From: Candidatus Aenigmatarchaeota archaeon | GTDB taxonomy: Archaea > Aenigmatarchaeota > Aenigmatarchaeia > GW2011-AR5 | Length of the DNA stretch: 64,000 nucleotides | Assembly (NCBI GenBank): GCA_016187335.1 | Contig: JACPJW010000001.1 | Span: 468,170 to 532,169, forward strand | Direction: 5' to 3' | In this document: one piece after another, positions 1 to 38,600 of the stretch | How positions within the stretch are numbered: the first letter of the stretch is position 1 | Layout of the letters: each line of letters opens with the position of its first letter | Notes under the pieces: generated by a model | What the model saw: only the letters and a program-made list of their open reading frames with translations | Databases searched by the model: none | Told to the model about the DNA's origin: nothing | Made by a program: the position numbers and the translations under genes

Positions 1-2
1 GC

Positions 3-2018
3 CGCGAAGCGGAGTTCCGCCGTGCCCGCGTATTCTTCAACATATCATACGTTTACCAGACCAACTCCTCTTTGCGCGTGCAGGTAATAAGCGAGGACGA
101 GTTGAAAAGAAAGTTCCGCGACCGCGAGGACGTTTTCAAGCCTGAGCTGGCTACGGACAAGGCAACGTCCGTGAAATTCTCGCTGAACGTAGGGCCGCAG
201 CCGATTGTTTACAATGACAAGAAACAGGACGGGTCGGCATTCCCCAGCGAGAAGGAACGCCAGGATGCCAACAAAGGGCAGCTGCTCGTTTCCGTCAGCA
301 ACCGCAGGCCAGACGGCTTGATTATCCTGAAGTCCGAGAAGAAGAGCAACGGGGTTATTACGCAAAGAGGCAACGTGGTAATCATTCATTTCCCCGGCTC
401 CGTCGGCAATGGCCTTAACTGCAACGGCCAGGACGCAAGGACGACAAGGGCCATGGACGGTCCGCCCGAGGACAAGGACAGGTACAGGAATATGGCGAAT
501 GAGGATGCGAAAAACGGCAAGGAGCTTGTGGTCTACAAAATACCGAAAGACATCGAGATGAAGCCCTTTGAGTTCCAGACGACGTTCGCGCTCTTGTGCG
601 AGTTCAATCTGGCAAAAGTGGATACGCTCCGCACGGATTACGTTATTGCTGAATTGCCTGAGTACACCTTCAGGCTGCAAAAGACTTTGGACGTCCCAGT
701 CACGCCTCCTATAGGCATACTGTTCGACCCTGACGAGGACACTTGCTTAAGTAAGTGCGCTGCAGGGATTGGCGTGCCGTGCATTGAAACCAGGTGCACC
801 AGCGCGAGCAATCCTGACAGCTCTGACCAGTATCTCCGCAGGCTTTACAACGACCCGAACACGCCGCGGTGCTGGTACGACCCGGTAGGCGGCAATATTG
901 AAAACCCATCCGCATCTGACATACCTGGCCAGTATATCGGCTCGGCGCTCACGTTCAACAAATGCCGCTCGTGCGGCGCGTTCAGGGGCGACACTGCGTG
1001 CGAGGTTTTCTACAACAAGCAGCTCTGCGACGAGCAAGGCAGCAAGCAATGCAACCTGAAGTGCAAGTGGACGCCTATTGAGGAGCTGAAGAAAAAGACG
1101 GCGCAGCCGACCCAGCAGGAAATCCTGCATGACGGAAAATGCGAAAAAATGCCGGAAGCGCCTGCGCAGCCAACAACGCCCGCGGCGCCTGCAACCGGTA
1201 CTGTTGGTCCTGTTTCAGCTGGCGCAAGCAAGGAACAGGTTGTAGCAAGAATAGCTGATGTATCAAAAGCAACGGGATTCAGCCAGACGGATGTTGAATG
1301 GATTTTGAAGCTTGTGATGACTGAAAGCACTCTGGCGCACTGCTGGGACGGGACAAATAGCTGCGGTGAAGACAGCAAGAATAGCGTTAAATGCGGCGAC
1401 AACGGCAATTCCTGCGGATTGTTCCAGCTTAACAAGGCTGCGCACCCGCAGTGGTACAATCCGTCGACAGCAGGATGTGATGGAAAGACAGCCTACGATA
1501 TTGACTGCAACATAAGAGTAGGAGTTTCTCACCTAAGGTCACTATACAATAGCTATTATAACAATGCGCCAAGAACGTACGCATGCAAAGGCATTCAATA
1601 CAGCGGATGGGAAGCTGTGCTGAGGTATTACAACGGCTGGCCACCATCAGGATCATCAGCATGCTCGGGAGACCCTAATTATGTCAATAATGTTGAAAGC
1701 AAAACAATTCCAGACAGCTACTTGAATATAATTGCGTCTGTTTATCAGGGCACTCAATTCGGCGGGCCTAATTACTGCTCCTCGCTGCCAAGCAGGGCAG
1801 CGGGCGCGAAATGCCAGATAGGGGAAGGCGGATGCAAGAGCACGAGCGAGTGCGAAGAAGTAAGGCAGGAAGTATTGATTAATGGCGAAGTGAAAGTGCT
1901 TACGCCTGACTGCAGGGACCCTGGCGCAGGAATAAAGCTGTGCTGCTACAGCAAGGTTGAAGGCTTTGATTCCGATGCGCATTGCATAAATAAATACAAC
2001 CAGAAAAAGAGCGAATGA
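3..2018 (+). CDS. Secreted lytic transglycosylase (SLT fold) with envelope domain, 5' truncated by the window
   Basis: The frame is open to the left edge, so the N-terminus is outside; about 671 residues are visible. In order: a beta-rich region (nt 3-720) that resembles the C-terminal half of the lipoproteins at 7036-12107 (shared ARV...Y-YQ-N, then a VISE/LSIN-type stretch, then PIV); a Cys-rich segment (nt 730-1140); a Pro/Ala linker; a lysozyme-like SLT transglycosylase domain (nt about 1230-1760) with a candidate catalytic Glu in VMTEST (nt 1323-1325), the family-typical CGLFQLN, and YYNGW; and a Cys-rich tail (nt 1800-1970) ending in LCCYSK. The family cleaves the glycan strand of bacterial murein. 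Archaea lack murein, so a foreign or modified substrate is an inference. The many cysteines suggest an extracellular, disulfide-bonded protein. Confidence 0.8.
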   Translation, partial: REAEFRRARVFFNISYVYQTNSSLRVQVISEDELKRKFRDREDVFKPELATDKATSVKFSLNVGPQPIVYNDKKQDGSAFPSEKERQDANKGQLLVSVSNRRPDGLIILKSEKKSNGVITQRGNVVIIHFPGSVGNGLNCNGQDARTTRAMDGPPEDKDRYRNMANEDAKNGKELVVYKIPKDIEMKPFEFQTTFALLCEFNLAKVDTLRTDYVIAELPEYTFRLQKTLDVPVTPPIGILFDPDEDTCLSKCAAGIGVPCIETRCTSASNPDSSDQYLRRLYNDPNTPRCWYDPVGGNIENPSASDIPGQYIGSALTFNKCRSCGAFRGDTACEVFYNKQLCDEQGSKQCNLKCKWTPIEELKKKTAQPTQQEILHDGKCEKMPEAPAQPTTPAAPATGTVGPVSAGASKEQVVARIADVSKATGFSQTDVEWILKLVMTESTLAHCWDGTNSCGEDSKNSVKCGDNGNSCGLFQLNKAAHPQWYNPSTAGCDGKTAYDIDCNIRVGVSHLRSLYNSYYNNAPRTYACKGIQYSGWEAVLRYYNGWPPSGSSACSGDPNYVNNVESKTIPDSYLNIIASVYQGTQFGGPNYCSSLPSRAAGAKCQIGEGGCKSTSECEEVRQEVLINGEVKVLTPDCRDPGAGIKLCCYSKVEGFDSDAHCINKYNQKKSE

Positions 2019-5879: not shown

Positions 5880-6761
5880 TCACACCCCCATTACGGTCCT
5901 CAGGAAATTGCGCAGTCCGGGGCCGAGGCCTAGGGCAAGTATTGCGATTTTCAGGAAATTTCTTTTTTCTGCATCGTGCTTTTCAGGCATTTCCTTGTCA
6001 AGATAGTAAAGGACCAGAAGGATTACCGGAAGCTTCAGGACATAAATCCCTGCAGGGCCGAAAATGCTGATGAAAAATCCCGCGACAACATGCTGCTCGA
6101 AGTAGGGAAAAAACTGGATGGCAACAAAAGTGGTCGTGGCGTCAAACATGTGCGCGCCCAGAAGCATTGAGTTTTCCTGTGAAAGCACCTTGTCGCGCAG
6201 GCCGAAGATGTTTTTTTCTCTAGCAAGCCATATAACGAAGAACCAGGCAGCTGATATTGACAGCACTGATACAAGAGCGAAGACGTCGGCAATCCTTACC
6301 TGTGAAAGCAGCATAAGGTTCAGGGCAGCGCCGATGGCAAACCATGACTTGTGGTATTCTATCCTGCTTTTTCTTTCAATGAGCAGCGCAAGCAGGAGCG
6401 CTGCCAGGGCGACAAAAAACACGAATATGTAAATCAGCGGCGAAGTGAACAGGAGGTTTCTTGCCACATTGTACGCGTCAACAAGTATGAGCGGCGAAAA
6501 GAAAGTTTTCTGCAGCGCGAAATTGGTCCCTGCTGACTCCCACAAGTCCTCAACGGCGCGCAGGATGCCGCCCATCGCGATGTAAGGTATTACTGCGAAA
6601 ATGAATTTTTTGTCCACAGCAACCCCCAGTTTTTTAAGCAGCTTGTAAACGCCGAACACCATCAGCACGAAGATTATCGCGTAAACGGATGTGTTGACGA
6701 TGTTGTAGCCCGCGTTGTAGCGTATCGGGTCTATGAAATACTGCTGGAAAAAACCGGCCAT
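5880..6761 (-). CDS. DUF63 family multi-pass membrane protein
   Basis: 293 residues from the ATG at 6761; 28 upstream codons in frame lack the family's conserved start. The N-terminus (QQYFIDPIRYNAGYN, then VNTSVYAI) and the segment IAMGGILRAVEDLWES match the archaeal DUF63 family as I know it. Eight or so hydrophobic helices are visible. Function is unknown in the family; the conserved charged residues inside helices (D, E, R in RAVED; D in the HMFDATTTF segment) hint at transport or an integral membrane enzyme. Its stop is 33 bases beyond the start of the 4626 gene, so both may be cotranscribed. Confidence 0.85.
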   Translation of the reverse strand: MAGFFQQYFIDPIRYNAGYNIVNTSVYAIIFVLMVFGVYKLLKKLGVAVDKKFIFAVIPYIAMGGILRAVEDLWESAGTNFALQKTFFSPLILVDAYNVARNLLFTSPLIYIFVFFVALAALLLALLIERKSRIEYHKSWFAIGAALNLMLLSQVRIADVFALVSVLSISAAWFFVIWLAREKNIFGLRDKVLSQENSMLLGAHMFDATTTFVAIQFFPYFEQHVVAGFFISIFGPAGIYVLKLPVILLVLYYLDKEMPEKHDAEKRNFLKIAILALGLGPGLRNFLRTVMGV

Positions 6762-6916
6762 GCTATCTAATTGGAAATCAAGCGTAAAAGCTTTTGTTTT
6801 AATTGTAATAACGGAAGCTTGGTCTGCTTTCAGTTTACAATTCAACAGCTAAACAGAACCCAACCGTATCTGGTTTCTCTTTCTGACTTGCTTCTTTGTT
6901 AAAAGTCTTTATACGA

Positions 6917-6999
6917 GGAGAATACCACTATTTTGAAATAGTGGTATTATGGCATTCTCCTGTATAAAAGAATCCACAAATAAGATGGCGGATTCTTTT
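6917..6999. repeat. Two nested inverted repeats upstream of the lipoprotein cluster
   Basis: A perfect 13-bp inverted repeat (arms 6921-6933 and 6936-6948, AATACCACTATTT) is flanked by a second pair, GGAGAAT at 6917-6923 and ATTCTCC at 6954-6960. A further pair, AAAAGAATCC at 6966-6975 and GGATTCTTTT at 6990-6999, follows at once. The stretch lies between the divergent DUF63 gene and the lipoprotein gene at 7036. It could be an operator, a transcript hairpin in the 5' leader or a small repeat element. Confidence 0.5.
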
Positions 7000-7035
7000 T
7001 ATATTGCGGGTCAAATAATACATTTTAGTGTTATC

Positions 7036-8457
7036 ATGAATGCGTTTAGCAGTAAGAATGTGAAATTTGTTCTGCTTATTATTGCCGTCGTTTTTGCGGC
7101 CGGATGCACCTCCCAGCTGCCCACATTCGGCCTGGACGCCATAAGCGTGAACAAGGAAATCAGCATTGAGGGCGACCGCGACGTCCTTGCAATCAGGGAC
7201 AAATTGACAATACCAAAATCGCCCATACTCACGGACCAGTCCGTCCAGTTTTCTTATGTTTTGGAAAACAAGGACACGGCAAAAAAGGCTGAGAACGTAA
7301 GGATAGATTTGTTTGACGCGCCACTGATGAAAAGAAAGAGCTCTGACGGGCCTTTGTGCAATTTCGGCAGGGACTCCAGCGGGAACTTCGCGGAAAGCCG
7401 TTCGTGCTTTCCCAACGAATGCAAATCTAGGGACGGCAATGCATGCGTTTTATCGGATATACTGCCGGGCGAGCAGCGCCAGGTTACCTTTGACTTGTTC
7501 TCGCCTTCGCAGGGGCAGATAGCGGGCCTGAAAACGGATTTGAAGATGAACTTCAAGGTCACATACAATTTTGAGGGCTCCACTTCATTCACGGTTCCTG
7601 TCGTGAACCTTGAGGAAATAACAGCGAGGCAGCGCGCAGGCGACAAGATAAAGGTTGATGTGACGAAAAGCATAGGCTCGGGCCCGATACAGGTTGACCC
7701 CGAGCTTTTCGGATCTTCTTACATTTTAGGCGGCCAGTCAGGAACGTTCTTCTTCGTCATAAAAAACAAGGGAAAAGGAAATTTGCCTTCGTCGCAGGTG
7801 CCGAAAGGCGGGCTTTGCGTCTATTTCCCTAAGGAATTCTTCACTGAAAATACAATTCTGGTAAATCCTGACGGCATAGAATGCAGGGGTCCTGAGTGCC
7901 AGAAAGGCAATGCAGCAACCGGTGAAGTAATATCCAAATACATAAGTGATATTACGGGAACAGGCGACAAGCCGCTTGTAACCGGATACGCAACTGACGC
8001 CAGAAGTTACAGATGCTATTCTTCTTCATCCAATGCATGCCTGGAACCGTACCCAACCCTGGAAGAATGCCAGAACGCATGCTCAGACTTGGATGTTTCA
8101 TGCATCCCTGCGGACGAATGCCTTCAGGACCAGGGCGGAAGCGGAACGGCGGTTCCCGCTGCAACACAGCAGAAAAAATCAGATCCCTTGTTTGATTGCA
8201 TGAGCGTTTCCAGCGCACCGGATGCTGGATGCTACGAAAAAGACAAGCCCGAGCTAAGCAACATGGTTTTGTGCTACAACAGCCGCGCCATAGAGCTGTT
8301 CAGGGACGAATCGCGCGTGTCGATGAGGTTTTCAATCCACAAGATAAGCGAAATAAAGGACCAGCCTTTCAGGTCGATGACAGTCATTTCAAGGATAAAG
8401 TATCCTTACGAGCTGCGGGATTCTTTTGGAATAACAGTAATACCAGCAAAGGAATAA
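7036..8457 (+). CDS. Envelope lipoprotein, first of four tandem paralogs
   Basis: 473 residues from the ATG at 7036, which gives a clean signal peptide (NVKFVLLIIAVVFAAGC) with a lipobox Cys at residue 23; the 29 codons before it run back into an inverted repeat. The mature part is beta-rich: an N-terminal sandwich (SVQFSYVLENKDTAKKAENV), a second one (GTFFFVIKNKGKGNLPSS) and a Cys-rich insert (about residues 300-420). The end, YELRDSFGITVIP, resembles YDIRDSVVVKIKK at the end of the 8530 protein. The pattern recalls CARDB-like surface repeats. Probably anchored outside the cytoplasmic membrane. Confidence 0.75.
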   Translation: MNAFSSKNVKFVLLIIAVVFAAGCTSQLPTFGLDAISVNKEISIEGDRDVLAIRDKLTIPKSPILTDQSVQFSYVLENKDTAKKAENVRIDLFDAPLMKRKSSDGPLCNFGRDSSGNFAESRSCFPNECKSRDGNACVLSDILPGEQRQVTFDLFSPSQGQIAGLKTDLKMNFKVTYNFEGSTSFTVPVVNLEEITARQRAGDKIKVDVTKSIGSGPIQVDPELFGSSYILGGQSGTFFFVIKNKGKGNLPSSQVPKGGLCVYFPKEFFTENTILVNPDGIECRGPECQKGNAATGEVISKYISDITGTGDKPLVTGYATDARSYRCYSSSSNACLEPYPTLEECQNACSDLDVSCIPADECLQDQGGSGTAVPAATQQKKSDPLFDCMSVSSAPDAGCYEKDKPELSNMVLCYNSRAIELFRDESRVSMRFSIHKISEIKDQPFRSMTVISRIKYPYELRDSFGITVIPAKE

Positions 8458-8529
8458 TGAAGCAAGAATAGAATGAAGCAGAACCTTTTGCTGGAAATTT
8501 TTGGAATAAACATCAGGGAAGTAATCTTA

Positions 8530-9351
8530 ATGGAAAGAAAAATATTTTTAAAAATATTTTTTCTTATTGCTCTTGCCGTTGCGGCGCTGGGATGCATTTC
8601 TTTCGGAGGCGTCACGAAGCTGAGCAGCGGCACGCTTGTCATGAAGATAACTGCGGACCCGCCTGAAGTCTTCATTGACGGCCTGAGCAATGTATACGTT
8701 GACGTGGCCAACAAAGATGTGAAGACGCTGGAATCGGTAAGCATAGACGTGTTTGAAACAGGCTTAATGGACAGGAGCGGGGACTGCAGGCAGTCCGTTT
8801 CCGAGATGAAGCCGAACCAGTCGTTCACGGTGAAGTGCATGCTCAGGGCAAGGACGGAAATAACAAGCAGTGAAGTGAGCAATGATGTCCATGCCCGCGC
8901 AAAGTTCAGCGCGGTGCTGAGCATTCTGCAGCCCGTTGACTTTATCAGCAGCGACTGGTACGAGCGCCAGCGCCTTCTGGGCCTGCAGCTGAAGCCGAGA
9001 AAATTCGCTTATGCCGACCAGAATCTGCAAGCAACAGTTGAGTTCAGCGACAACATGCCCTTTGTGGTGCGCGAAGGCAAAAAATACTACATGTACATAA
9101 CGGTTGAGAATGTAGGCGGCGGAATCATGAGCCAGATAGAGCCGCCTAAAATAGAATACGTTGACAAGTCGGCAAGAATAGCAAGGGAATGCGTGTTCGA
9201 AAAATTGCTTATAGTGGGGAAGAAATTCCCGCGCATTGCCTGCGAAATCACCCCGCCTGAAACGGATACGCAGAAGACTGTTGATTTAATATTGAACATA
9301 GGGTATAATTATGACATCAGGGATTCTGTTGTCGTGAAAATAAAGAAGTGA
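8530..9351 (+). CDS. Envelope lipoprotein, second of four tandem paralogs
   Basis: 273 residues from the ATG at 8530; an earlier in-frame ATG at 8473 would put 19 polar residues before the signal peptide. The hydrophobic leader ends in the lipobox ALGC (Cys at about residue 22). Two beta-sandwich-like repeats follow (VFIDGLSNVYVDVANKDVK and KKYYMYITVENVGGG), so it is the shortest paralog and lacks the Cys-rich insert of its neighbours. Same strand and 72 bases behind the 7036 gene, 1 base before the next gene at 9353: one operon. Confidence 0.75.
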   Translation: MERKIFLKIFFLIALAVAALGCISFGGVTKLSSGTLVMKITADPPEVFIDGLSNVYVDVANKDVKTLESVSIDVFETGLMDRSGDCRQSVSEMKPNQSFTVKCMLRARTEITSSEVSNDVHARAKFSAVLSILQPVDFISSDWYERQRLLGLQLKPRKFAYADQNLQATVEFSDNMPFVVREGKKYYMYITVENVGGGIMSQIEPPKIEYVDKSARIARECVFEKLLIVGKKFPRIACEITPPETDTQKTVDLILNIGYNYDIRDSVVVKIKK

Positions 9352-9352
9352 T

Positions 9353-10825
9353 ATGATGAAGCAGAAAAAAAATCGCCTGTACTTTTTTCGTTTTGACGGA
9401 AAAAAATCTCTAGCACTTCTTCTTCTTATTATTTTTCTCGCGCTTGGGTGCGTGCAGAAGCAGGTGAAGACAGATCCCAACGACGGGCTGAAGATATCGG
9501 AGTTCGTCATAGACCCGGACGATGTCGAGGGCTCGGATTATTTCTGGATATCCGCCCTGGTTGAGAACGTCGGCGGCACAACGGCAAGGAATGCGGAAGT
9601 CCAGGTTTACGGGATTTCATGGAAGGAAGAGAAAGTGACTTTGTTTTCCAGCAAGGAATTAAGGCCCCCCGAGCCGGAAAGGAACGTGGAAGGAGGAGTC
9701 GCTTTCGGCCAGAGGCGCATCCAGGCTCCGCAGCTTCCCGAAGGCATAACACACAAATTCAATTTCGTCGCCCGCGCATTATATGATTACTCAACGTCAG
9801 CTGTCACCCAGATTCCTGTAATGAGCAAGACGGAGTTTGACAGGCAGAAGCTGAGGGGCAGCGTACTGCCTGCGCTGAAAATAACAAACACAAACGCGCC
9901 GATAAAGATTGACATGAGCGGCGGGAGCCCGATAATCGCCGAGGAAGAGGATTCAGGGGAATTCTTTTTCAAGATACACCTGAAGAATACGGGGAGCGGA
10001 ATTCCGATAACCAACGGCGTTACAGGTCTCATAACAGGAACCGTAAGCATAGAGGGCGGCGGCAGGTTCAAGGAGTGCCTTGGGGTTAAAGACACGAGCA
10101 AGATAAAGCTGCCGGTTGATTCTTCCGGCATCCTTCTGAGGCGCGGCGAATCGGTGACATTGCCCTGCTCTATTGAGCTTGATACTTCAAGGTGGGAGCA
10201 GATACCGCAGGGGGCGCTTCTGATAAGGTTTGAACTTACTTACAGGTATTTCACGGAAAATGAAGGGCAGCTTGTCGTTCACGGAAGAAGGCTGCGCAAG
10301 GGAGGAGAAACAGAGCCGGTCCCGACCGCTCCGAGCCGCGTGCCTTCGGATGTATTCCAGACGTCGACTCAATGCTATGCCCAGAAGGGCAGTTGCGTCA
10401 GCGGCGAGTGCAGCATTGACGAAGAGCAGATAGGATACTGCGGAAATTTCAATGTAGTCTGCTGCAGGGCGCTTACGGAACCGGTCCCGGCGCCGACAGA
10501 GCCAGTACCTGCAAAGCCCACAGAGCCTGCGGAACCCACACCTTCAAAGCCTTCGTACTGCGATGTTCTTACATTCTGTGGCCCCAGGCCGGCTGACGAA
10601 AAGTGCAATCTGGATGACCAGGGCGGCCTCTACAGGTCAGGGGCATCCAGGCCGTTCGGGACATTCTGCAATTTTGACAGCAAAGGAGATTATTTCATAG
10701 GCAGTATGCAGTCGTGGTTCAGGTGCGTTTCAGGATGTTACGACGACATCTACATAGACAAATACGACACGCCTATTCGCATAAAGGTGCCAGAATTCAA
10801 CGAGTGCAGGCCTGAGTGCAAATGA
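9353..10825 (+). CDS. Envelope lipoprotein with clip-like disulfide module, third paralog
   Basis: 490 residues; ATG at 9353 directly after the previous stop, with a second ATG at 9356. Signal peptide ends in LALGC. After VQKQVKTDPNDGLKISEF, shared almost exactly with the 10887 protein, come two beta domains (VENVGGTTARNAEVQVYG; FFKIHLKNTGSGIP) and the block IPVMSKTEFDRQK...PIKI...SPII that also occurs in 10887 and in the transglycosylase at the left edge. The C-terminus adds a six-Cys unit (C-x6-C-x4-C-x9-C-x6-CC, near residues 343-372), a Pro/Thr/Glu linker and another Cys-rich unit. Extracellular, membrane-anchored; function unknown. Confidence 0.75.
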   Translation: MMKQKKNRLYFFRFDGKKSLALLLLIIFLALGCVQKQVKTDPNDGLKISEFVIDPDDVEGSDYFWISALVENVGGTTARNAEVQVYGISWKEEKVTLFSSKELRPPEPERNVEGGVAFGQRRIQAPQLPEGITHKFNFVARALYDYSTSAVTQIPVMSKTEFDRQKLRGSVLPALKITNTNAPIKIDMSGGSPIIAEEEDSGEFFFKIHLKNTGSGIPITNGVTGLITGTVSIEGGGRFKECLGVKDTSKIKLPVDSSGILLRRGESVTLPCSIELDTSRWEQIPQGALLIRFELTYRYFTENEGQLVVHGRRLRKGGETEPVPTAPSRVPSDVFQTSTQCYAQKGSCVSGECSIDEEQIGYCGNFNVVCCRALTEPVPAPTEPVPAKPTEPAEPTPSKPSYCDVLTFCGPRPADEKCNLDDQGGLYRSGASRPFGTFCNFDSKGDYFIGSMQSWFRCVSGCYDDIYIDKYDTPIRIKVPEFNECRPECK

Positions 10826-10886
10826 TTGATGCAATGCGGCCTAGATAAAAAAACTATTTAAGCGACCTCTGAGAAAAGATTAATTG

Positions 10887-12107
10887 GTGCCGCGAGTGAG
10901 AAATTATACCATAATATTTCTTCTGATTGCTGCTGTTGCCGTGTCCGGATGCGTGCAGGGAAAGCAGGTTAAGACGGACGACAACAACGGCCTGGTCATA
11001 AACTCGTTCACAGCAGAGCCGAAGACGGCTTTTCCTACGGATTCAGTCAGCTTCTTCCTGGATGCGGAGAACGTAGGCAGCTTTACTTCTGAATGCGCAA
11101 GGGCGCAGTTGTTCAATGTAGACAGCTGGCGCCTTACTGACGGAAGAAAGGTCAGCGACGAGCTTGAGGGCGTTCCTTTCCGTGGAGTCCAAGTAAGCCC
11201 GGGAGGAATTAGCATAAACATAGTGTTCGGCAGGCCCGTAAGCGTGAGCGTGAACATCCCGTTCGGCGACGCGGATCCAATCAAGCAGCAGTTCAAGGAC
11301 GTCCTGTGCGGCTTCAACAGCCTCGGCTCGTTCAGCGACCAGCTTGTCAAGACGGACATTGATATTCTTCCTCCTGATGTTGACAGGAACAGGGCGGGCA
11401 AGATATTTGCGACGTCATGGACTTTGTTCCCGCCCGTGCTTCCCGAGGGCGTTTCAACCACATTCAATCCGAAGGCGCGCGTTTATTACCTTTATCAGAG
11501 CAACGCCATTGCGAAAATACCTGTCCTCTCAATAAACGAATTCAGGAGAAGGCAGAATACCGGCCAGGACACAACGCTTGTCGCGGACATCTCCAACCAG
11601 CACTCGCCCGTAAAAATCGCGCTGACAAGGGGAGGGGACAGGCCCATAGTTGTTGACACGAACCCGAAGCTCCTGCAGAATTTCAATACGCAGAAAGAGC
11701 GCTCTACGTTTGTCTTTGAGATGCAGAACGTCGGCAACGGCTTCGTAACACCCGCTGAATTCATAGACGGCAAGCAGGGCGGATTCATTTTCGGCAAAAT
11801 AATTCTTGACGGAACCGGCGTTGAGTTCTCCGATTGCCTAGGCGTCACGGAAGACCAGCACACCAAGGAAGTTATCGTATCAGGAGATAATGCTTTGCTG
11901 CTGAAGATGCGCTCCGACAAGAAAGTTCCTTTTGCCTGTACCATAGCCGTGGACAGGAACGTATGGCAGACGCTCCCGCAGGGCGAAGTGACTCTTAGAT
12001 TCCAGATGTTCTATGTTTACAATGTAGATGCAGAGGCTCCTGTGAAGGTCGTAGGCGTTGAGTCAGGGCAGACGGTGGAAGAAGTCGAAACAGGGCCGCC
12101 GGGATAA
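10887..12107 (+). CDS. Envelope lipoprotein, fourth paralog
   Basis: About 406 residues. The start is uncertain: TTG at 10884, GTG at 10887 and GTG at 10896 are all in frame and no ATG exists before the lipobox (VAVSGC). The mature N-terminus VQGKQVKTDDNNGLVINSF is nearly the same as in the 9353 protein. Two beta domains follow, with YYLYQSNAIAKIPVLSINEF and PIVVD matching the transglycosylase gene at 3-2018 better than any other neighbour. It lacks the C-terminal Cys modules. A GATTAATT-type AT-rich patch upstream may be its own promoter, as 61 bases separate it from the 9353 gene. Confidence 0.7.
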   Translation: MPRVRNYTIIFLLIAAVAVSGCVQGKQVKTDDNNGLVINSFTAEPKTAFPTDSVSFFLDAENVGSFTSECARAQLFNVDSWRLTDGRKVSDELEGVPFRGVQVSPGGISINIVFGRPVSVSVNIPFGDADPIKQQFKDVLCGFNSLGSFSDQLVKTDIDILPPDVDRNRAGKIFATSWTLFPPVLPEGVSTTFNPKARVYYLYQSNAIAKIPVLSINEFRRRQNTGQDTTLVADISNQHSPVKIALTRGGDRPIVVDTNPKLLQNFNTQKERSTFVFEMQNVGNGFVTPAEFIDGKQGGFIFGKIILDGTGVEFSDCLGVTEDQHTKEVIVSGDNALLLKMRSDKKVPFACTIAVDRNVWQTLPQGEVTLRFQMFYVYNVDAEAPVKVVGVESGQTVEEVETGPPG

Positions 12108-12163: not shown

Positions 12164-13465
12164 TTACTTTGATAAAAATTCCCCCAGATTCTTCTGCGTT
12201 TTTTTGTAAGATTCCGTTTCCTTTTGGTACAACTTTTTGGAAAAGTTGTTTTTCTGAAAAGTTTCACCTATTACAGGCTTTCCGTAAACGCCGTCGTATC
12301 CTGGAATTACTTTGATATTGCCGTTCCTGTTTTTTATGATTGCATCGGCAATTTTCTCGTCAACAATTTTTGACAAGTCATTTTCTTCAACATTTAATAA
12401 GATGTTGAATTCATTCCCAAAACGATTAATCAATTTATTGTAGACTTCCCATACTTTCTTGCTGAACGTTTCCGTACTTAGAGTAACTGCAATTAACTCA
12501 TTCAAAGGAATAAATTTCTTGAACGGAACGGCATTTTCAGGGACGAAGCCTTCTTCCCTGTCGGCCAGTTCTTCCACCCGGTGAAGCACGCCTATTGTTA
12601 ATTCTTTCAGACATTTCGGGCACAAATTATTATTAGCGATTGATTCTTTTGGAGGCAGCGATACGCCGCAGTTCCTGTGACCATCATAATGATATTTTCC
12701 CTCTTCCGGAAAAAATTCTAATGTCATCAAAAATTTTTCTTTGTCTTTGGCTCTGATTATGTCAATGAGTTCTTTGTACGTTATCTCTTTCATATCAAAT
12801 ACACAACATTCTCTTCCTAAGCGCCAAGGCCAATGAGAATGGGCATCGGAAAAAGACAAAATAGCTAAATCATCCAGTTCAGAAATTCTCCAGTTCATAG
12901 AGGGGTCGGAAGATAGACCTGTCTCGATAGCATGTATATGATTTAGATGGTCGCCAAAACAGTCCTTTATAGAATTGAAACCGGACTGGGAACCGTAAAG
13001 ACTGAAGAACGGAGTCCATATGTGTGCAGGTATGATTTCTATATCCTTGGAAATGCTCATCAGATTTTCAACTAGTTCCATAGAATTGAACCCGAATATT
13101 GGACGGCCGTCATAGTCGCGCCTTCCTTTCCTGTCAAGCCATTCGTTTATCTGGTCGACTACCTCGAAATTAGGAGCAAGAATTATGTGATGTATGCGGT
13201 ATTGTTTTCTGCCCTGCGTATAAATCAGGGAAATCTCTACCGAGAGCATAAAATTCATCCCAGCGTATTCATAGATGCCCTCGGAATGCTCAGAAAGATT
13301 TTGTTTCAGATGCTCCAGCCATTTCGGGTGAGTGAAGTCCGCACTACCCATCAGATTGAGGCCCTTTATTCTTCCATATTTAGCAATGTTATCAAGATCC
13401 AGATCCTTGGATGTCGCACGGGAATATTTAGAATGTAAATGTAAGTCAGCATAAACTATGGTCAT
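12164..13465 (-). CDS. Endonuclease Q (EndoQ), PHP-domain DNA repair nuclease
   Basis: 433 residues. The PHP-type metal motif DLHLHSKYS opens the protein, followed by KGLNLMGSADFTHPKWLEHL, then further metal ligands (HIIL, PAHIW, SFSDAHSHWPWRLG). The C-terminal zinc/helix part has HRNCGVSLPP...LCPKC and GVLHRVEELADREEG, the hallmark of EndoQ in Thermococcales. EndoQ nicks DNA 5' of deaminated bases (hypoxanthine, uracil, xanthine) and abasic sites. The last 30 or so residues (FQKNNFSKKLYQKETES and on) are a Lys-rich tail whose DNA resembles the hairpin repeats found between genes elsewhere in the window. Convergent with the lipoprotein operon. Confidence 0.85.
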   Translation of the reverse strand: MTIVYADLHLHSKYSRATSKDLDLDNIAKYGRIKGLNLMGSADFTHPKWLEHLKQNLSEHSEGIYEYAGMNFMLSVEISLIYTQGRKQYRIHHIILAPNFEVVDQINEWLDRKGRRDYDGRPIFGFNSMELVENLMSISKDIEIIPAHIWTPFFSLYGSQSGFNSIKDCFGDHLNHIHAIETGLSSDPSMNWRISELDDLAILSFSDAHSHWPWRLGRECCVFDMKEITYKELIDIIRAKDKEKFLMTLEFFPEEGKYHYDGHRNCGVSLPPKESIANNNLCPKCLKELTIGVLHRVEELADREEGFVPENAVPFKKFIPLNELIAVTLSTETFSKKVWEVYNKLINRFGNEFNILLNVEENDLSKIVDEKIADAIIKNRNGNIKVIPGYDGVYGKPVIGETFQKNNFSKKLYQKETESYKKTQKNLGEFLSK

Positions 13466-20649: not shown

Positions 20650-22176
20650 ATGGACTATATAATTGAAGGGTCTATCGTTCAAGATGGCCGTAAGAATGAA
20701 TATGAGGTTCTTGAACTTTTAGGGTCTGGTGGTTTTGGTAATGTATTCAAATTAAAAAGAAAAAGTGATGGAGAAATTTTTGCACTTAAGACATTGCAAG
20801 TAGGGTTTTCAGCGCAAGAGTATATAGATAGCTTCAGACACGAAAGCGAAGCGGCAACTACAATTTCTAATGCTAACGTCTTGAAGTATGTGTTTTTTCA
20901 TGATGGAAGCTTGTTTGAACAGCTTCCTCCGTACATCATTATGGAGTTTGCTGACGGGGGTTCATTGCAACAGTTTCTCGAAGAGCAAAAAATGAAAGGC
21001 TACTTCTCAAATTCAGAGATTAAGTCGATGTTCAAACAACTTATATCTGGAATGAATGCAATTAATGAAAAAATTATACATAGAGACCTCAAACCTGCAA
21101 ATGTTCTTATTTCTCAAAAAACTTTTAAGATAAGCGATTTTGGACTTTCAAAAATTTCTGAGGATGATACGAGAACATGTACCTTTAAGGGAAGTGGCAC
21201 TTACTCGTATATGTCACCTGAAGCATGGCGGCTGGAAAAAAATACAGTTCTAATGGACATATATTCTATGGGCTTGATATTTTTTGAAATAGCGACTCTT
21301 AAACATGCACTTACTGATGAAAAGACAGAAAGTGTGGAAAGTTGGAGAACACTACATTTATACACAGCTCCTAAGAATTTGATGCAACTCAATAAGGACT
21401 TGAGTCCTCTTATAGTACGACTGATTCAGCGAATGATTGCTAAAAATTCAACAGACCGCTTTAAGTCTTGGAAAGAAATTGAAGATTTTTTAGAAAAGGA
21501 TAATTTACCTCAAACAGAGAATAGCGAGACGATACGTCAGATACTTGAAAAAAAGTCGGAAGCTGATTACAAAAAAAATCAGGAAATAGCAAGGCTAGAA
21601 TCAGAGGAAAAGGAAAGAATAGAGAAGAAAAAGCTCGTAGAATACATGTTTCATGAAAAGGTCGTGAGACCTGTAGAAAAATTTGTTGATGAGTTAAATC
21701 AAAAACTATTGCCCCAAGAAAAAATAACACTTTCAGAAGAAGACTTATTTGTTCGTATTGAATTTTCTAATAGTAAGAGTATAACAATAGAATGCACACC
21801 TGTATTAGAAGAAAATCTAACAAGTCGGGTATACATGGATGGACACGGAATTCCACGAAAACCGCCAATAGAAATGCCTAAATTAAGACATAAAAGTGTA
21901 ATAGCTTGGGGTATTATTAACTCGTCTTCTGAAAAAGGTTACAACTTATTGTTAACTGAAAAAGAAGATGATCCATATGGTGAATGGATTATACTTACAA
22001 ATACGAGCAGTGCCCTTTATTCTGGTAGAAGACAACAACCAGAACCATTTCCTTTTGACTATGATCAATTAGAAAGTGAACTACCAAATATAACTGCAAT
22101 GCACATTTATGATATGAAAGATGAGATGTTAAATTTGAGTAAAATTTATGATTTGATTTCAGAGACACTAGTTTAG
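20650..22176 (+). CDS. Hanks-type (eukaryotic-like) serine/threonine protein kinase
   Basis: 508 residues. All catalytic motifs are present: Gly-loop LGSGGFGNVFKL, ALK lysine, helix-C Glu in RHESEA, HRDLKPANV, DFGLS, activation segment GSGTYSYMSPEAW, and DIYSMGLIFFE. So it should be an active cytoplasmic kinase (residues about 17-285). A coiled-coil stretch rich in Lys/Glu follows (about 295-335), then a C-terminal domain of about 170 residues I do not recognise. No membrane segment. The gene is visibly AT-rich compared with flanking genes and sits beside an integrase fragment and tRNA repeats, so I infer acquisition by transfer. Confidence 0.9.
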   Translation: MDYIIEGSIVQDGRKNEYEVLELLGSGGFGNVFKLKRKSDGEIFALKTLQVGFSAQEYIDSFRHESEAATTISNANVLKYVFFHDGSLFEQLPPYIIMEFADGGSLQQFLEEQKMKGYFSNSEIKSMFKQLISGMNAINEKIIHRDLKPANVLISQKTFKISDFGLSKISEDDTRTCTFKGSGTYSYMSPEAWRLEKNTVLMDIYSMGLIFFEIATLKHALTDEKTESVESWRTLHLYTAPKNLMQLNKDLSPLIVRLIQRMIAKNSTDRFKSWKEIEDFLEKDNLPQTENSETIRQILEKKSEADYKKNQEIARLESEEKERIEKKKLVEYMFHEKVVRPVEKFVDELNQKLLPQEKITLSEEDLFVRIEFSNSKSITIECTPVLEENLTSRVYMDGHGIPRKPPIEMPKLRHKSVIAWGIINSSSEKGYNLLLTEKEDDPYGEWIILTNTSSALYSGRRQQPEPFPFDYDQLESELPNITAMHIYDMKDEMLNLSKIYDLISETLV

Positions 22177-31108: not shown

Positions 31109-34100
31109 CTATTTTCTTAGCAGTTTTGTTTTGCGCGAATAAAGGAAAGCGCCGCCGACAACGACAGCAGCGGCTGCAAAAACAATGGTAAAATCTGCTA
31201 TATTATAAGGTTTTGCAGTGACCTGCCCTGTGGGCGCTGTTTGATTGGCAGTTTTATTTTCGTTTTCCTGGTGCGGTGCAGCGGAGGCATTCACTGTTTG
31301 ATTGACAGCTGTACTGGTTGTGTTCAGGGTTTGTCCTGCCGTATTGTTTCTGGATGTGTTTGTCGCCGCAGGCGGCGGGCTGCCGCTGCTGCTTGATGAC
31401 GATGATGAGGAAGACGATGACGAAGATGAAGGCTGCGAAGGCGGCGTGTAGGTGAAAGTCACGTTCGTCTGGTTTACGTTGCTGGATGTGTCGTTCGCAT
31501 AAAGAACAAGCGTGTTGCTGCCTGACGAAGCCGTTATCGTTGTGTTTGCGCAGCTGTCCAAAGTTGTGTTGGAGCCCGAATTCAGCCTGTACCAGCATTT
31601 GTCAACAGCAGCATTGTCGCTGACCGTGTATGTTAACGATACGTTAGATGACGAATAAGTCGTTGCAGCCGGCAATGTCATTGTCAAAGAAGGCGCTGCC
31701 GTGTCGTTCCCGCCGGCGCCGCCCGAGAACGACGGCAGAAAGAGAGTAGAGCTGTTGGCTGACAAATTGTAGCACGGCTTGTTGGTAACGTTGGCGTTGC
31801 AGGCGTTTGATATTCTTGTCGTTGTGACATTGATGCTCGTGCCGTTCAGGTAGAAATAAAGCGCGTAAGCGCGCGGGAAAGTTATTTTTGCCGTGAAGTT
31901 ATCTGCTGGCAGCATGTCATTAAGGTCAACCCATACGTAGCTGTCCAATGCGCCACCAGAGTTGATGAACGCCCTTGATATATTCTGCTCTGATGTTATG
32001 TTTTTTGTCATGTTTATTGCCGCAGAAGAATTGAGATTTCCTACAATGAAATCAGAGGTTTCTACCAGAATATTTGATATGTTGAACCGCAAGGTATAGT
32101 TATCAAATGAGGTGAGATTGTCGCTGTCAGCAAGTCCGCCTGTTGAATTGAGGAGCAGCAGCGTTATGTTCAGTCCTGACAAGCTTTGGTTAAGGCTCTT
32201 TATCACGGAAGTTATGTTTCTTGTCACGTTAACGAAGACCCACCGCGCTTCCGTTGAATTCATATTGCCGAAGGAATCTGTGGCATTGACCCTGAAAGTA
32301 TAGTTTCCTTCAGCCAGCTTTGTTTTCACCTTGAACCAGCTCAGCCCCGAGCCGTTCATTGATTCATTCACACCGTTCCATTCCAAGAATATTGAAGAAG
32401 GCACGTCGCTTGTCGTGACATTTACAGTAAAGGAATTGCTTGTGTTCAGGAAAAAATTAACTGGATTTTCAAAGGACATCTCCACGAATGCTACGTCGAC
32501 GGTCACTGTTCGCGTGAGGTTCGTGGCATTTATATTGCCTGCCTTGTCGGTCATCTGGATTTCTATTTTGTAAATGCCATCCGAAGGCACTCCCGTGCAG
32601 TACGTAGATGTGCAGGATCCATTCCATGTTTTAAGAATTGACAATGTGTTCTTCACTGTCTGGAAAGTCTTCACCCTGCTGCCGTTCTGCGCAAGAATGT
32701 ACGTCGTGCTGAAATTGACAACTTCGTTAGCAGTCACATTGAAGCTTATTTCATCATAAAAGCCGTCGTTGTTCGGCGAGAAAATATTTCCCCTTGCGCC
32801 GCTGAAGCTGACATTAGCCTGCGGCACTGTCATGTCAAAAGTTACATTTTTTTCAGTGAACGCGCTGTTTGACGCGGAATCGTTCACGTATATTTTGTAT
32901 GAATGAAAGCCTTCCGAAGAGGACTTGTTGATGAAGCAGTTAGCAGCAGAAGAGTTCATCGTCTCATTTGTTCCGTCCCATTCTAAAAAGCACCGGAACG
33001 GATTCGTTTCGTTCACTGTAACGTTAACAAAAGTGTAGTTTCTGTTCAAGAAGCGTCCGTTGTCATCGCTTATGTTTGTTATCGCAGGAAATATAGTGTC
33101 CACAAAGAACCTGATGGAGGAAAACGATGATAATCCGTTGTCATCGATACAGGTCACGTTTACTTCATTAGAACCTTCAGGCAATACCTCATTAATGAAT
33201 CCATAAGCCGAATCGAAATTATACGTGAAATTTATTTTCAGGTTGTTCATATTGTACGTGCATTCCTGGGATGTCTGTACCCTCCTGTTGAGCAATACTT
33301 TATGTATTATGAGACTGGATTCGTTAAGATAAGTCCCGTTAGTTATGTTCGTTATATTTATTTTCGTCGCGGCGTTTGCCAGTTGATTTAGTATTTTATT
33401 ATTCGATGTTACCGAGTAGCTGAGTGTCTGGTTCGGAATTATTTTCAAGATCCATAAGCCGGTCCCGCCGGAAAGGGAAAAATTAAGCCGCGTCCTGTTT
33501 TCCGGCAATACAGAAACTAACGACGAATAATTGTAGAGCAAGGCGTTCACCGTCGCATTTCCAGTCCAGTCAATGCTGATTTCTATCGTCGTGTTCGTTA
33601 CATTCAGTTCATGATACGTTGTTTCATTGATTGAAGCGCTGAAGAGAAAGAGCTGGCCTGAAAGAGCAATGCTTGATGCCAAGGCGTATTTCTGCGTCCC
33701 GTTGACGTAAGTGCCATTCACAACCAGCTTCCAGTATCCTGATGACGGATTGGAAAAAATTATCTTTTCGTCCGTGTTGTTTATTGATAGCGAAGCGTTT
33801 CGCTGCGTGCCGGAGGGATCATAGAGCAGCAAATCCAGGTTGTTGTGCTCGCTGTAATTCTCCGGCCAGTAGAGGGTCGCGCGAAGCTCGCTGCTGCCGT
33901 CAGGCACGAAAATATTGTGCGCGCGGGAATAGTTGCCGATGATTGCTGACACGGTATAATTTATCTCACCGAGCAGCCGTGAGACATTTACAACGCCCGC
34001 CCCGTAGCTGTTGTTCTTCTCACGCCCGTCCGCCGTGTTCATCAGCAGTGCCTTGAACTCAGCCGGCGTAAGGTTGCCTCTCGCCTGCAATGCGAGCGCG

Positions 34101-35143
34101 GCAACGCCGGCTATGTGCGGCGCGGCCATGCTCGTGCCTCGCAGCGTAACAAAGCCGCCGTCGCTTGATGCGGAAGTTATCCACTCACCTGGTGCAATGA
34201 TATCGGGCTTGATGCGGCCATCCCCTGTCGGGCCGCGGCTGCTGAACTCGCTTACGACATTTTTCTGTGTTCCGAGTGATCCGTTCTGCAGTTTGCCAGT
34301 CTGCCCGGAGCCCACAGTTATTGCCTTGTGCGACAGACCCGGGCTCTGTATGGACATAGCATCCGGACCTGCGTTTCCAGCGGAAACAGTAACGATTTTT
34401 TCCTGGTCCACGGCGTAATCCAAATACTGCGAAAGAGCATCGCTTCCGTCGTTATTGCCGTCAGCGCCGCCCAGGCTCAGCGTCAGCACATGCGCGCCCT
34501 GCGCTATGCACCAGTCAATACCTCTCATTATGTCAGGATCAGGAGCGAACGAGTTTTCTGTTACGTTATCGACATTATAGAAAACTTTGGCATTGAGCAG
34601 TGACACACCCGGCGCGATCCCCCTGTAAGTATTGTCGCCGCTTCCAACAATGCCCGCGACGTGTGTCCCGTGGCCAGTGCCGATATCATTCGTGCTGTTG
34701 CCGTCTTCATCATCCAGAACAAAATCTCTTTCTGCGACAATTCTGCCGGCGAGAGCAGGATGACTGCTGTTCATGCCCGTGTCAATGACGCACACCTTGA
34801 CGCCGAAGCCGTTGTAGTATTGCCATATACCGCTTGCACCGATAAGCGGCGCAGAAACGTCAAGAAGCGGCCTGCTTTTTCTTTCAAGCCATACTTTTTT
34901 CACGCCTGCAGAATTTTCCAGGAAGGCGAAGTTAATTTTGCTTATGTTCGCGGCATAGAAGCCGCCGGTAAAATTTTCATATTCATGCGATACGGAAGCT
35001 ATCAGCGGAAGCGCGGTTTCATCCGCCTTGATGATGACCTTTACGTAATCAGTGCTCTGCCGGTAAACAGACGGCTCTATCTTGTCAGCGCTTGCAGCGG
35101 CGGCAATCAGCAGAACAGCAAAAATGAATACAACAGGTCTCAT
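31109..35143 (-). CDS. Subtilisin-like serine protease with long Ig-like stalk and C-terminal membrane anchor
   Basis: 1344 residues from the ATG at 35143. Signal peptide ([19 protein letters not shown]), a prodomain of about 100 residues, then the S8 domain with the complete triad: Asp in [14 protein letters not shown], His in [10 protein letters not shown], Ser in [19 protein letters not shown] pre-peptidase-like beta domain and several Asn/Thr-rich beta repeats follow, with many N-x-S/T glycosylation sites. A run of 15 Ser separates them from the last helix (about 1315-1337) and basic tail. Probably displayed on the cell surface, for processing of surface proteins or nutrition. Confidence 0.92.
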
Positions 35144-35403
35144 TAACAAAAATAAGCAGGGCACAAGGATTTAACCAAAAAAGTGCGGCTTTGGAAGGAG
35201 GTTTTTTGTTAATAAGAGCGATAAGAATTCCTTTGAAGTTCTTTTTCCCATCAAGGATTTTTCTTTCAAGAAAAATGCTTGTGTCATACTTTTTCATACA
35301 CTTTAGCATTACAAAGCCATTACCATTGCAACTCCATAGTGATTAAATAGCGTCAATGTCGCCGCAATAAAGCTTAAATATGAATGTTACCAAAAGAATT
35401 TTG

Positions 35404-35598: not shown

Positions 35599-35646
35599 AC
35601 AAATATATACGGGTAAAACCAATAGTTTAGAAGGATGATGTTGCCG

Positions 35647-38600
35647 ATGGATATGCGAAAAGGCGTTGTCAAAGGGTTCGTAGCAGTCAGCGCAATATTC
35701 CTGCTTGCGCTAGCCGTTTTCTTCGTTGCAAATTACGTCTTCACGGTTTTCGCAACAGCTTCTTTGTCTTCCAACAATGTCGCGGCAGGACAGGGCAATG
35801 CGACCTTTGACACGAACCAGACGGGCATAGACATAAACATAACGATAAACATCACGTCAATAAGCGGCGGCGTGAGCCAGGCGATTCAGGCGATAGATGT
35901 CAACATTACGCAGGCAGGATTTGTAAATGTAACGGCAGAAAATCTGAGGTGTCCTGACAGTGCAACACTGACATGGGTTAATTCTTCTCTCACCGCAGGC
36001 ACTGATGTTGTGCTCCGCTGCGCGAACGGAACAGCGGCAGGCGCAGCACAGCTTAACAACACAGTTACGCAGCTCCGAATTGTCGGATTGACAGCAAGGA
36101 ACAGCCCGGGAACTCCTACGTTTAACGTAAGCCTGAAGTACAACTCTTCAATGGCTGTTGAAAACAGCACTTTGATGACATTGACAATCCTTGAACTCCA
36201 GGCATCATCTTCTTTGAATGATACGACATCGCGCATAGACGAGCAGCGCAGCTACAACTTCACCATAACAAATAACGCGACAGAAAACGAGAACTACGAA
36301 AAAATAGATGAAATCAGAATAGATTATACGCTTTCAGGATTCACGGATACAGGCGGCGCGAATGTAACGTGCCCTACAAACTTGGGAACTCCTGCATGGG
36401 ACCTGGTGAACAGCTCGGCAAGCAATGTCATAAGATGTTCAAAGCCTGCAAGCGGAGGTTCGTCTTTGGACAAAGGTTCGTCCACTAACATTGTCATCAG
36501 AAACTGGGGCGCTTCGCCGATAGCCCAGACAAGAAGGTTTATCATAATTGTCAACGGCACCAACGCCAACGGCACATACACGGTTGCAAACCAATCAAGC
36601 CCTAGCGTTGTTGTGAACGGAACAATTAATGTTACGGGAACATCTGTCACGCCTTCCACGGTTGCGAGGAACGCGACAAATGTCACTTTGATGCGTTATG
36701 CATTCAACACGGTCGGCGAGCAGTTCAACGTGTCTTTGATAAAGCTCACGCTGAGCGGCTCTGCGGCAGAAAGCGACTTTGACGGGATAAGGCTTGTAAA
36801 CGACTCCAACGCCGACGGCGCGTATGACGCAACAGACACACCTGTTTTGAACGCTTCAGCCCTTTCTGCTGCGAGGCAATACGAGTTCGTCGGCAACCTC
36901 AGGATTTCCGACAACAACACTTTGCTTTTGGTTGCAAACTTTTCCGGCTCTGCGGTGGGCGGGCGCACTTTCAGGTTCAATCTCAATGCAACATCCGACA
37001 TAGATTCCCTTGGCGGGAATTCCGGCGCTAACGTCACGGAATCATTGGTAACAACGCAGTCAAACCAGGGCACGATACACGGCACCCTTGTGGTGAAGGG
37101 ATACAACCTGGTGCCTACAACGAAAGCGATAAACACTGCAAACCTTGCCTTTGCTTACCTTGAATTCAACGCGACCGGCGAGGGCATGAACATATCACTG
37201 TTCAATATTACAAGAACAGGCTCTGCAACAGACAGCGACGTTGTCCTTGTCCGTCTGTTCAACGACACGAACGCAAATGCTGCATTTGACGCGGGAACGG
37301 ACACCCAGCTCGGCGCCGCGCTGAACGCAAGCTCCAGCAGCCAATATACATTCACAGGCTTCCAGTACAACATTTCAGCAGGCAGCGAAAGCAGGATATT
37401 CATTGTCGCGAACATAACATCGGCAACAGGCGGCCGGCTTGTTTCCTTCGGCCTGAACAGGACGGGCGACTTGCAGGTTGTCGGCGCAGCGACCAACGAA
37501 AACTTCACAGCCACGAAAAACATATCGTTTGTCACCGCGCAGTCCGGGACGACAAAAATACACGGAACGCTCAATATTATAGGAAAGGCCTTGAACCCTA
37601 ATACGACGGCGATAAACACAGCAGGCTTGGCTGTATTGCTCCTGAACTTTACCGCAGAGGGCGAAACGATCAACGTGACGCAGATTAATCTTACAAGGAC
37701 GGGATCGGTAACTGACGGCGACGGCATATTCAACGTGAGCCTGTACAACGACACGGACAGGAGCGGAACATGGAATTCCGCGGATATAGTTGTCACAAAC
37801 GACACAGCGAATGCGCTGAACGTGACAACATCAAGCCAGTACATTTTCCTGACATTGAATGATCAATCTGGGGACCTTGCCGGCAACGGCTACAACGTAA
37901 CGACCGCGGGCTCTTCCCTGCTTGTGGTTGTAACAACAAACGCCTCCACGTCAACAGGCGGCAAGACGTTCAACCTGACCCTTAACGGCTCGGGCAGCGT
38001 GCAGGCATTCACCAATACATCCGCAGTGAACCTCACAGGCTCCACAAATGTGACGCTGACGACCACGAACGGGAATCTGACGACAATATTCGGTACCCTT
38101 GCTGTATCCGGCACGCACATAGCGCCCGCGACAGCTGATGCGGGCCAGCTTGCCGTCGCAATATTAAATGTCACGTTCGCAGCGACGGGCGAGCAGATGA
38201 ACATAACCCAGATCAACATAACGCTGAACAATACAAACAACAACGACGCATCTGCCGTCAAGCTGTACAACGACACGGACAGGAGCGGCTCTGTGAATGC
38301 CGGCGATTTACTTGTGGCAACAGCGACGGTCTCAGGCAGCATAGCAAGGTTCGGCACAGGAGCGGGTCAGCTGTTCAACGTCAGCGCCGGCGCGCAGAAA
38401 ACCATGCTTGTGGCTTACGACATTAACTCAACGGCAACGGGCGGCGACACATTGGATGCACACTTGGATGCAGCAGGAAACTTGACCGTGACCAGCGGCA
38501 CGTCAGGCTTGTCAATAACCGCGTCAGGAACTCCGGTGAACCCTGCTGGCAGCACGCAGGTAGTTGCGTTAGTTGCTACGGTCACTCTTGATTTCACATC

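Follow-up and report, generated by a model that had tools for sequence, protein, structure and literature searches.

A candidate lytic transglycosylase-type enzyme as an exchangeable cassette of a membrane scaffold in an Aenigmatarchaeota archaeon

It is an open question whether there are DPANN archaea that use bacteria as hosts or prey, and the first open reading frame of the 64,000-nucleotide stretch analysed here (the window) raises it for Ca. Aenigmatarchaeota: what would an archaeon do with an enzyme of a bacterial wall-cutting type? The source genome measures 1.01 Mb. No Mur ligase was found in it, and none of the 59 genomes searched had more than one, with controls detected; at a completeness of about 91% this absence is not absolute. 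Thus, the archaeon itself shows no recognisable pathway for murein or pseudomurein. Contamination was considered and rejected, since synteny of the locus extends to named Aenigmatarchaeota genomes and archaeal genes are present in the window (DUF63, S-layer, PGF-pre-PGF). A viral or plasmid origin of the domain was also rejected, as no match was found among viral contigs, phages and plasmids.

The SLT domain and its membrane scaffold

The preliminary description had reported an SLT domain with three motifs, and these lie where it had placed them: the candidate catalytic Glu at 1323–1325 (+) (residue 441 of the reading frame and 1262 of the full protein), GLFQ at 1416–1427 (+) and YYNGW at 1626–1640 (+). 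In an alignment of the window SLT domain with those of nine scaffold relatives, the E–S, G..Q and Y–N positions are invariant in all ten copies. The window copy alone stays below the Pfam cut-off for SLT (E = 0.014; 15.4 bits against 21.3) and below the curated cut-off for SLT_3 (E = 0.008), unlike several of the scaffold relatives, which score above the Pfam SLT cut-off. A single-sequence phmmer search of the PDB with the window domain returned chance matches only. Because the domain is weak alone, the case rests on its scaffold-borne family. Among the PDB sequences, the ten-copy profile matched MltC (E = 1.3e-8), Slt70 (8e-7) and goose lysozyme (1e-4). The AlphaFold2 model of the domain, built from the segment at 1218–1754, has a pLDDT of 86.3 and a pTM of 0.86. 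Its top 48 Foldseek matches consist almost entirely of lytic transglycosylases, lysozymes and muramidases, together with a GH23 chitinase, with probabilities of up to 0.96 and weak E-values (best 0.07). The family profile and the predicted structure agree with the preliminary description, the lysozyme superfamily dominating the fold matches, and we confirm that window positions 1218–1754 (+) encode an SLT/GH23-type domain of predicted lysozyme fold. The domain shares the ES, GLxQ and YN motifs and the predicted lysozyme-like fold with Slt70 and MltC of family GH23; it differs from them in being archaeal, in its C-terminal position on a membrane scaffold and in its extra cysteines. Catalytic activity, with murein as the substrate, is proposed; GH23 also includes chitinases.

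The reading frame at 3–2018 (+) is the 3′ 45% (671 of 1492 amino acids) of a larger gene, L002:10710–15188 on G000:C2, which starts 2.46 kb upstream of the window. Window positions 1–2018 (+) thus hold residues 822–1492 of a scaffold protein, and the window edge is preceded by 821 further residues that include five predicted transmembrane (TM) segments. The full protein has no N-terminal hydrophobic segment or signal peptide (the best 19-residue hydropathy in the first 80 residues is 0.82). The five hydrophobic segments, averaged over the family, span residues 558–576, 580–598, 611–629, 637–655 and 661–679, and are followed by a strongly conserved juxtamembrane stretch (GPY...TNPTEWYA.QQ..NVRPE). 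Then come, in order, a CARDB/Ig-like ectodomain, of which the C-terminal part lies at 3–720 (+), a family-conserved Cys-rich connector at 732–1139 (+), the SLT domain and a Cys-rich C-terminal domain at 1752–2009 (+), which is 53% identical to that of a congener. In one scaffold relative, a DnaJ domain occupies the N-terminal part (E = 2.1e-9; L023:11930–12289 (−)), and a second match, at L034:7104–7586 (+), is sub-threshold. Such a domain fits a cytoplasmic N-terminus, which, with an odd number of TM helices, predicts an external C-terminus. We therefore infer that the N-terminus is cytoplasmic, that five helices cross the membrane and that the enzyme end lies outside. DnaJ is an odd partner for a surface enzyme. 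The model of the scaffold core (pLDDT 73, pTM 0.47) gave no convincing fold match in the PDB except to Ig-like folds in the ectodomain, and no recognised wall-binding domain was found in the scaffold protein. Wide reuse of the Cys-rich C-terminal domain was considered and rejected, as at E ≤ 0.001 it occurred on scaffold proteins only in the 20 genomes searched.

The ectodomain resembles the lipoproteins encoded at 6949–12107 by profile (E = 8.7e-9 and 1.8e-7; 0 matches in 3200 shuffled sequences), a resemblance that these scores indicate to be real, as profile homology. It bears out the view that an SLT-type enzyme has been fused to a lineage-specific envelope domain in an archaeon. The preliminary description had assigned the resemblance to the N-terminal region; the homology stands but the placing does not, since with 821 residues upstream the lipoprotein-like region is the middle of the full protein.

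Exchange of the enzyme cassette

The core of the scaffold is conserved among relatives and its C-terminus varies. Most relatives carry SLT domains of several types. Others show different enzymes: Glucosaminidase and M23 replace SLT in the congener G001, M23 accompanies SLT in G004 and G021, Glucosaminidase is combined with VanY in G005, SLT with Amidase_2 in G020, and an SLT-like domain with an esterase in G007. No recognised enzyme was found on the scaffold ends of G006, G019, G024, G027, G029 and G030, so the scaffold also serves another function.

Two comparisons define the exchange at its boundaries. First, the scaffold core of G001 is 75% identical to that of the window. Along the whole protein, the identity is 55% over residues 240–892, 44% over 913–1202 and 53% over 1405–1490, and residues 1202 to 1405, which make up the enzyme, do not match; this stretch without a counterpart corresponds to window positions 1146–1751 (+), the exchangeable cassette. 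Second, the scaffold cores of G008 and G013 are 96% identical, whereas their SLT domains are 29% identical. At the DNA level, their loci show 90–91% identity on both sides of a non-aligning stretch of about 1.05 kb at the 3′ end of the scaffold gene. The SLT tree rejects the pairing of G008 with G013 (p-AU 0.0018). The core tree in turn rejects the SLT tree's preferred pairing (p-AU 3e-47). Both tests were made on ten rows that include some long branches. Both exchanges are recent and bounded by conserved sequence. The preliminary description had considered the enzyme built into the surface protein rather than recently dropped in. The comparisons reverse this: they indicate that the scaffold, with its socket, is old and that the enzyme cassette is recent and exchangeable.

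An M23 peptidase domain (E = 5e-25) is also present in a separate protein of the window, encoded at 57860–59791 (−); the genome has three M23 matches in all. Between this domain and the M23 cassette of the congener the identity is 49%, which suggests that cassettes may circulate between proteins within the lineage.

The arrangement recalls the polymorphic toxin systems of bacteria, in which a constant carrier has its C-terminal enzyme replaced at the 3′ end of the gene. The scaffold is likewise a conserved carrier with an exchanged C-terminal enzyme. Unlike in those systems, no cassette-linked immunity gene was found: the gene adjoining the 3′ end stays in place, at 91% DNA identity, where the cassette differs, and we do not class the scaffold as such a system. 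Lacking murein, an archaeon would not need an immunity gene. A carrier with exchangeable cassettes, a design known from bacterial toxins, may thereby be added to the repertoire of archaea.

Gene neighbourhood and distribution

The scaffold gene belongs to a block that is conserved in relatives and comprises genes for an MscS-like small protein, a cytoplasmic protein, a one-TM protein, the scaffold, a DUF63 protein, CARDB lipoproteins and a PHP-like protein. In the window, the DUF63 membrane protein, a recurrent neighbour of the scaffold in relatives, is encoded at 5880–6845 (−). It is followed by four lipoprotein genes that are syntenic in relatives, at 6949–8457, 8473–9351, 9353–10825 and 10884–12107 (all +), of which the first, third and fourth products are CARDB-like. 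The PHP-like protein at 12164–13465 (−) borders the block in several relatives. The third lipoprotein also matches the Pfam beta-defensin family (PF00711, E = 1.8e-6) through a six-Cys module ending in CC, whose Cys spacing recalls the Cys-rich C-terminus of the scaffold; it is probably a convergent disulfide module.

With the core as query, 95 of the 156 genomes in the phylum set gave matches at E ≤ 1e-5; strong full-core matches are limited to the order, and lipoproteins or partial matches account for many of the weak ones. A scan of the whole GTDB for the core, with one narrow motif pattern, returned 16 loci, 13 in Candidatus Aenigmatarchaeota, one in GW2011_AR5 and two in entries named 'archaeon'. 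The idea that the scaffold carries most of the wall hydrolases in these genomes was rejected, as scaffold proteins make up about nine of the 32 SLT reading frames and four of about 44 M23 reading frames in 59 genomes. SLT domains also occur in relatives on other large proteins that are not scaffolds (G030:C6:85305–85601, G025:C17 and G020:C78; one frame has 3646 amino acids), two of which also carry Amidase_2, and wall hydrolases are widespread across the class.

A proposed role at contact with bacteria

SLT and glucosaminidase domains cleave the glycan of peptidoglycan, M23 and VanY its peptide bonds and Amidase_2 the amide between sugar and peptide, so that peptidoglycan is the common substrate of these families. 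Their interchange on one scaffold, in an archaeon in which no Mur ligase was found, argues that the cassette would be directed at the bacterial wall, and the independent M23 protein in the window also counts in favour of this reading. Against it count the sub-cut-off SLT score, the weak Foldseek E-values, the GH23 chitinase among the fold matches, the lack of a recognised wall-binding domain, the enzyme-less scaffolds in some relatives and the case made for archaeal hosts (Li et al. 2021, PMC8407114). On balance, we consider it probable that an SLT-type enzyme is displayed on the cell surface by an exchangeable membrane scaffold and cuts the wall of an apposed bacterium at contact. Two findings thus strengthen the role toward bacteria that the preliminary description had raised: the absence of Mur ligases, and the exchange of SLT for M23, amidase, glucosaminidase and VanY domains.

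In the proposed mechanism, this DPANN archaeon would show a peptidoglycan-cleaving enzyme of the lytic transglycosylase type on its own surface, as the exchangeable C-terminal cassette of a membrane scaffold specific to its lineage. The protein would run from a cytoplasmic N-terminus through five TM helices, a CARDB-like stalk and the Cys-rich connector to the enzyme. Since it is tethered through the five helices, the enzyme would act when cells touch and cut the wall of the neighbouring bacterium, which would open that bacterium for feeding or attachment, or injure it. Contact dependence and a benefit to the archaeon are both conjectural. A further-reaching version, which we put forward tentatively, is a dedicated anti-bacterial surface machine that acts on contact, made up of the five-TM scaffold, the syntenic lipoproteins and the other neighbours, with rapidly exchanged peptidoglycan-hydrolase tips matched to particular bacterial partners. 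If this is true, some Aenigmatarchaeota would be predators or episymbionts of bacteria.

The same sequence evidence would serve a defensive role, in which the tethered hydrolase repels attached or predatory bacteria (e.g. Patescibacteria). The exchange of enzyme types would fit an arms race with changing attackers, and nothing in the locus separates defence from attack; however, the reduced biosynthesis of Aenigmatarchaea (PMC8407114) favours a need to open partners, and we regard defence as unlikely. It is quite unlikely that the cassette is directed at chitin or at a surface glycan of the archaeon itself or of an archaeal host, and not at murein. The GH23 chitinase match, the esterase beside the SLT-like domain in one relative and the host inferences for Aenigmarchaeota, which are archaeal (PMC8407114), point that way, but relatives fill the same position with the peptidoglycan families M23, Amidase_2, Glucosaminidase and VanY, and there is no Mur ligase for an own wall. 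This also makes improbable the self-directed role on another glycan that had been offered as an option. The divergence of the window copy from canonical SLT, and a CARDB stalk and Cys-rich domains that would suit an adhesin, could describe a former SLT domain that has degenerated into a non-catalytic module adhering to bacterial walls. We give this little credence, because neither the catalytic Glu nor either of the other two motifs varies among the ten copies, and swapping between enzyme classes would be surprising if binding were the sole function. Finally, a polytopic protein with an SLT domain recalls VirB6 and VirB1 of type IV secretion or conjugation machines, a reading rejected as hardly credible because no P-loop_TraG/VirB4 ATPase scored above the cut-off in this genome and 29 relatives (controls detected), the conserved neighbours include no type IV secretion genes and the core has no fold match.

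Peptidoglycan-cutting enzymes of archaea have been described before. Large extracellular murein transglycosylase-like proteins of Woese- and Pacearchaeota (fam00969) led Castelle et al. (2021, PMC8204110) to suggest bacterial hosts, and peptidoglycan-degrading Woesearchaeota were proposed by Vigneron et al. (2022, PMC9723730). Compared by description only, fam00969 shares with the scaffold a DPANN origin, a very large surface protein, a lytic transglycosylase domain and a proposed action on bacterial walls; the present case differs in its phylum, Aenigmatarchaeota, in the five-TM scaffold, in the conserved neighbours and in the exchange with M23, amidase, glucosaminidase and VanY domains. Strock et al. 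(2025, PMC12352652) demonstrated killing of a bacterium by two peptidoglycan hydrolases from archaea, which, like the cassettes, belong to bacterial wall-cutting families; the scaffold protein differs in its five-TM tether and in having no recognised wall-binding domain. Because the survey in that study required a wall-binding domain, it could miss enzymes of the scaffold type; it found signal peptides in about a third of its proteins and noted domain shuffling. For Aenigmarchaeota, Li et al. (2021, PMC8407114) argued against bacteria as hosts and favoured archaea. Titles and abstract openings on Aenigmatarchaeota with transglycosylase, M23 or peptidoglycan, of which our coverage is incomplete, do not describe this architecture. 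Transglycosylases of DPANN archaea and archaeal peptidoglycan hydrolases are already published; what is new is a membrane-tethered design with exchangeable enzymes, in a phylum whose members had been argued not to have bacterial hosts. If bacteria were not the targets, it would be hard to explain why a wall-cutting enzyme fixed to the membrane changes type between scaffolds that are nearly identical; the finding suggests a tool or weapon carried on the surface for use against bacteria.

Other genes in the window are of separate interest. A eukaryote-like Ser/Thr protein kinase is encoded in this DPANN genome at 20650–22176 (+) (Pkinase, E = 2e-45), and a 1351-residue subtilase (S8) with Ig-like repeats, possibly a surface protease, at 31109–35164 (−). 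The 2196-residue reading frame at 35635–42225 (+) has a strong AT skew and no Pfam match, is followed by a gene for a PGF-pre-PGF protein and likely encodes a giant surface protein.
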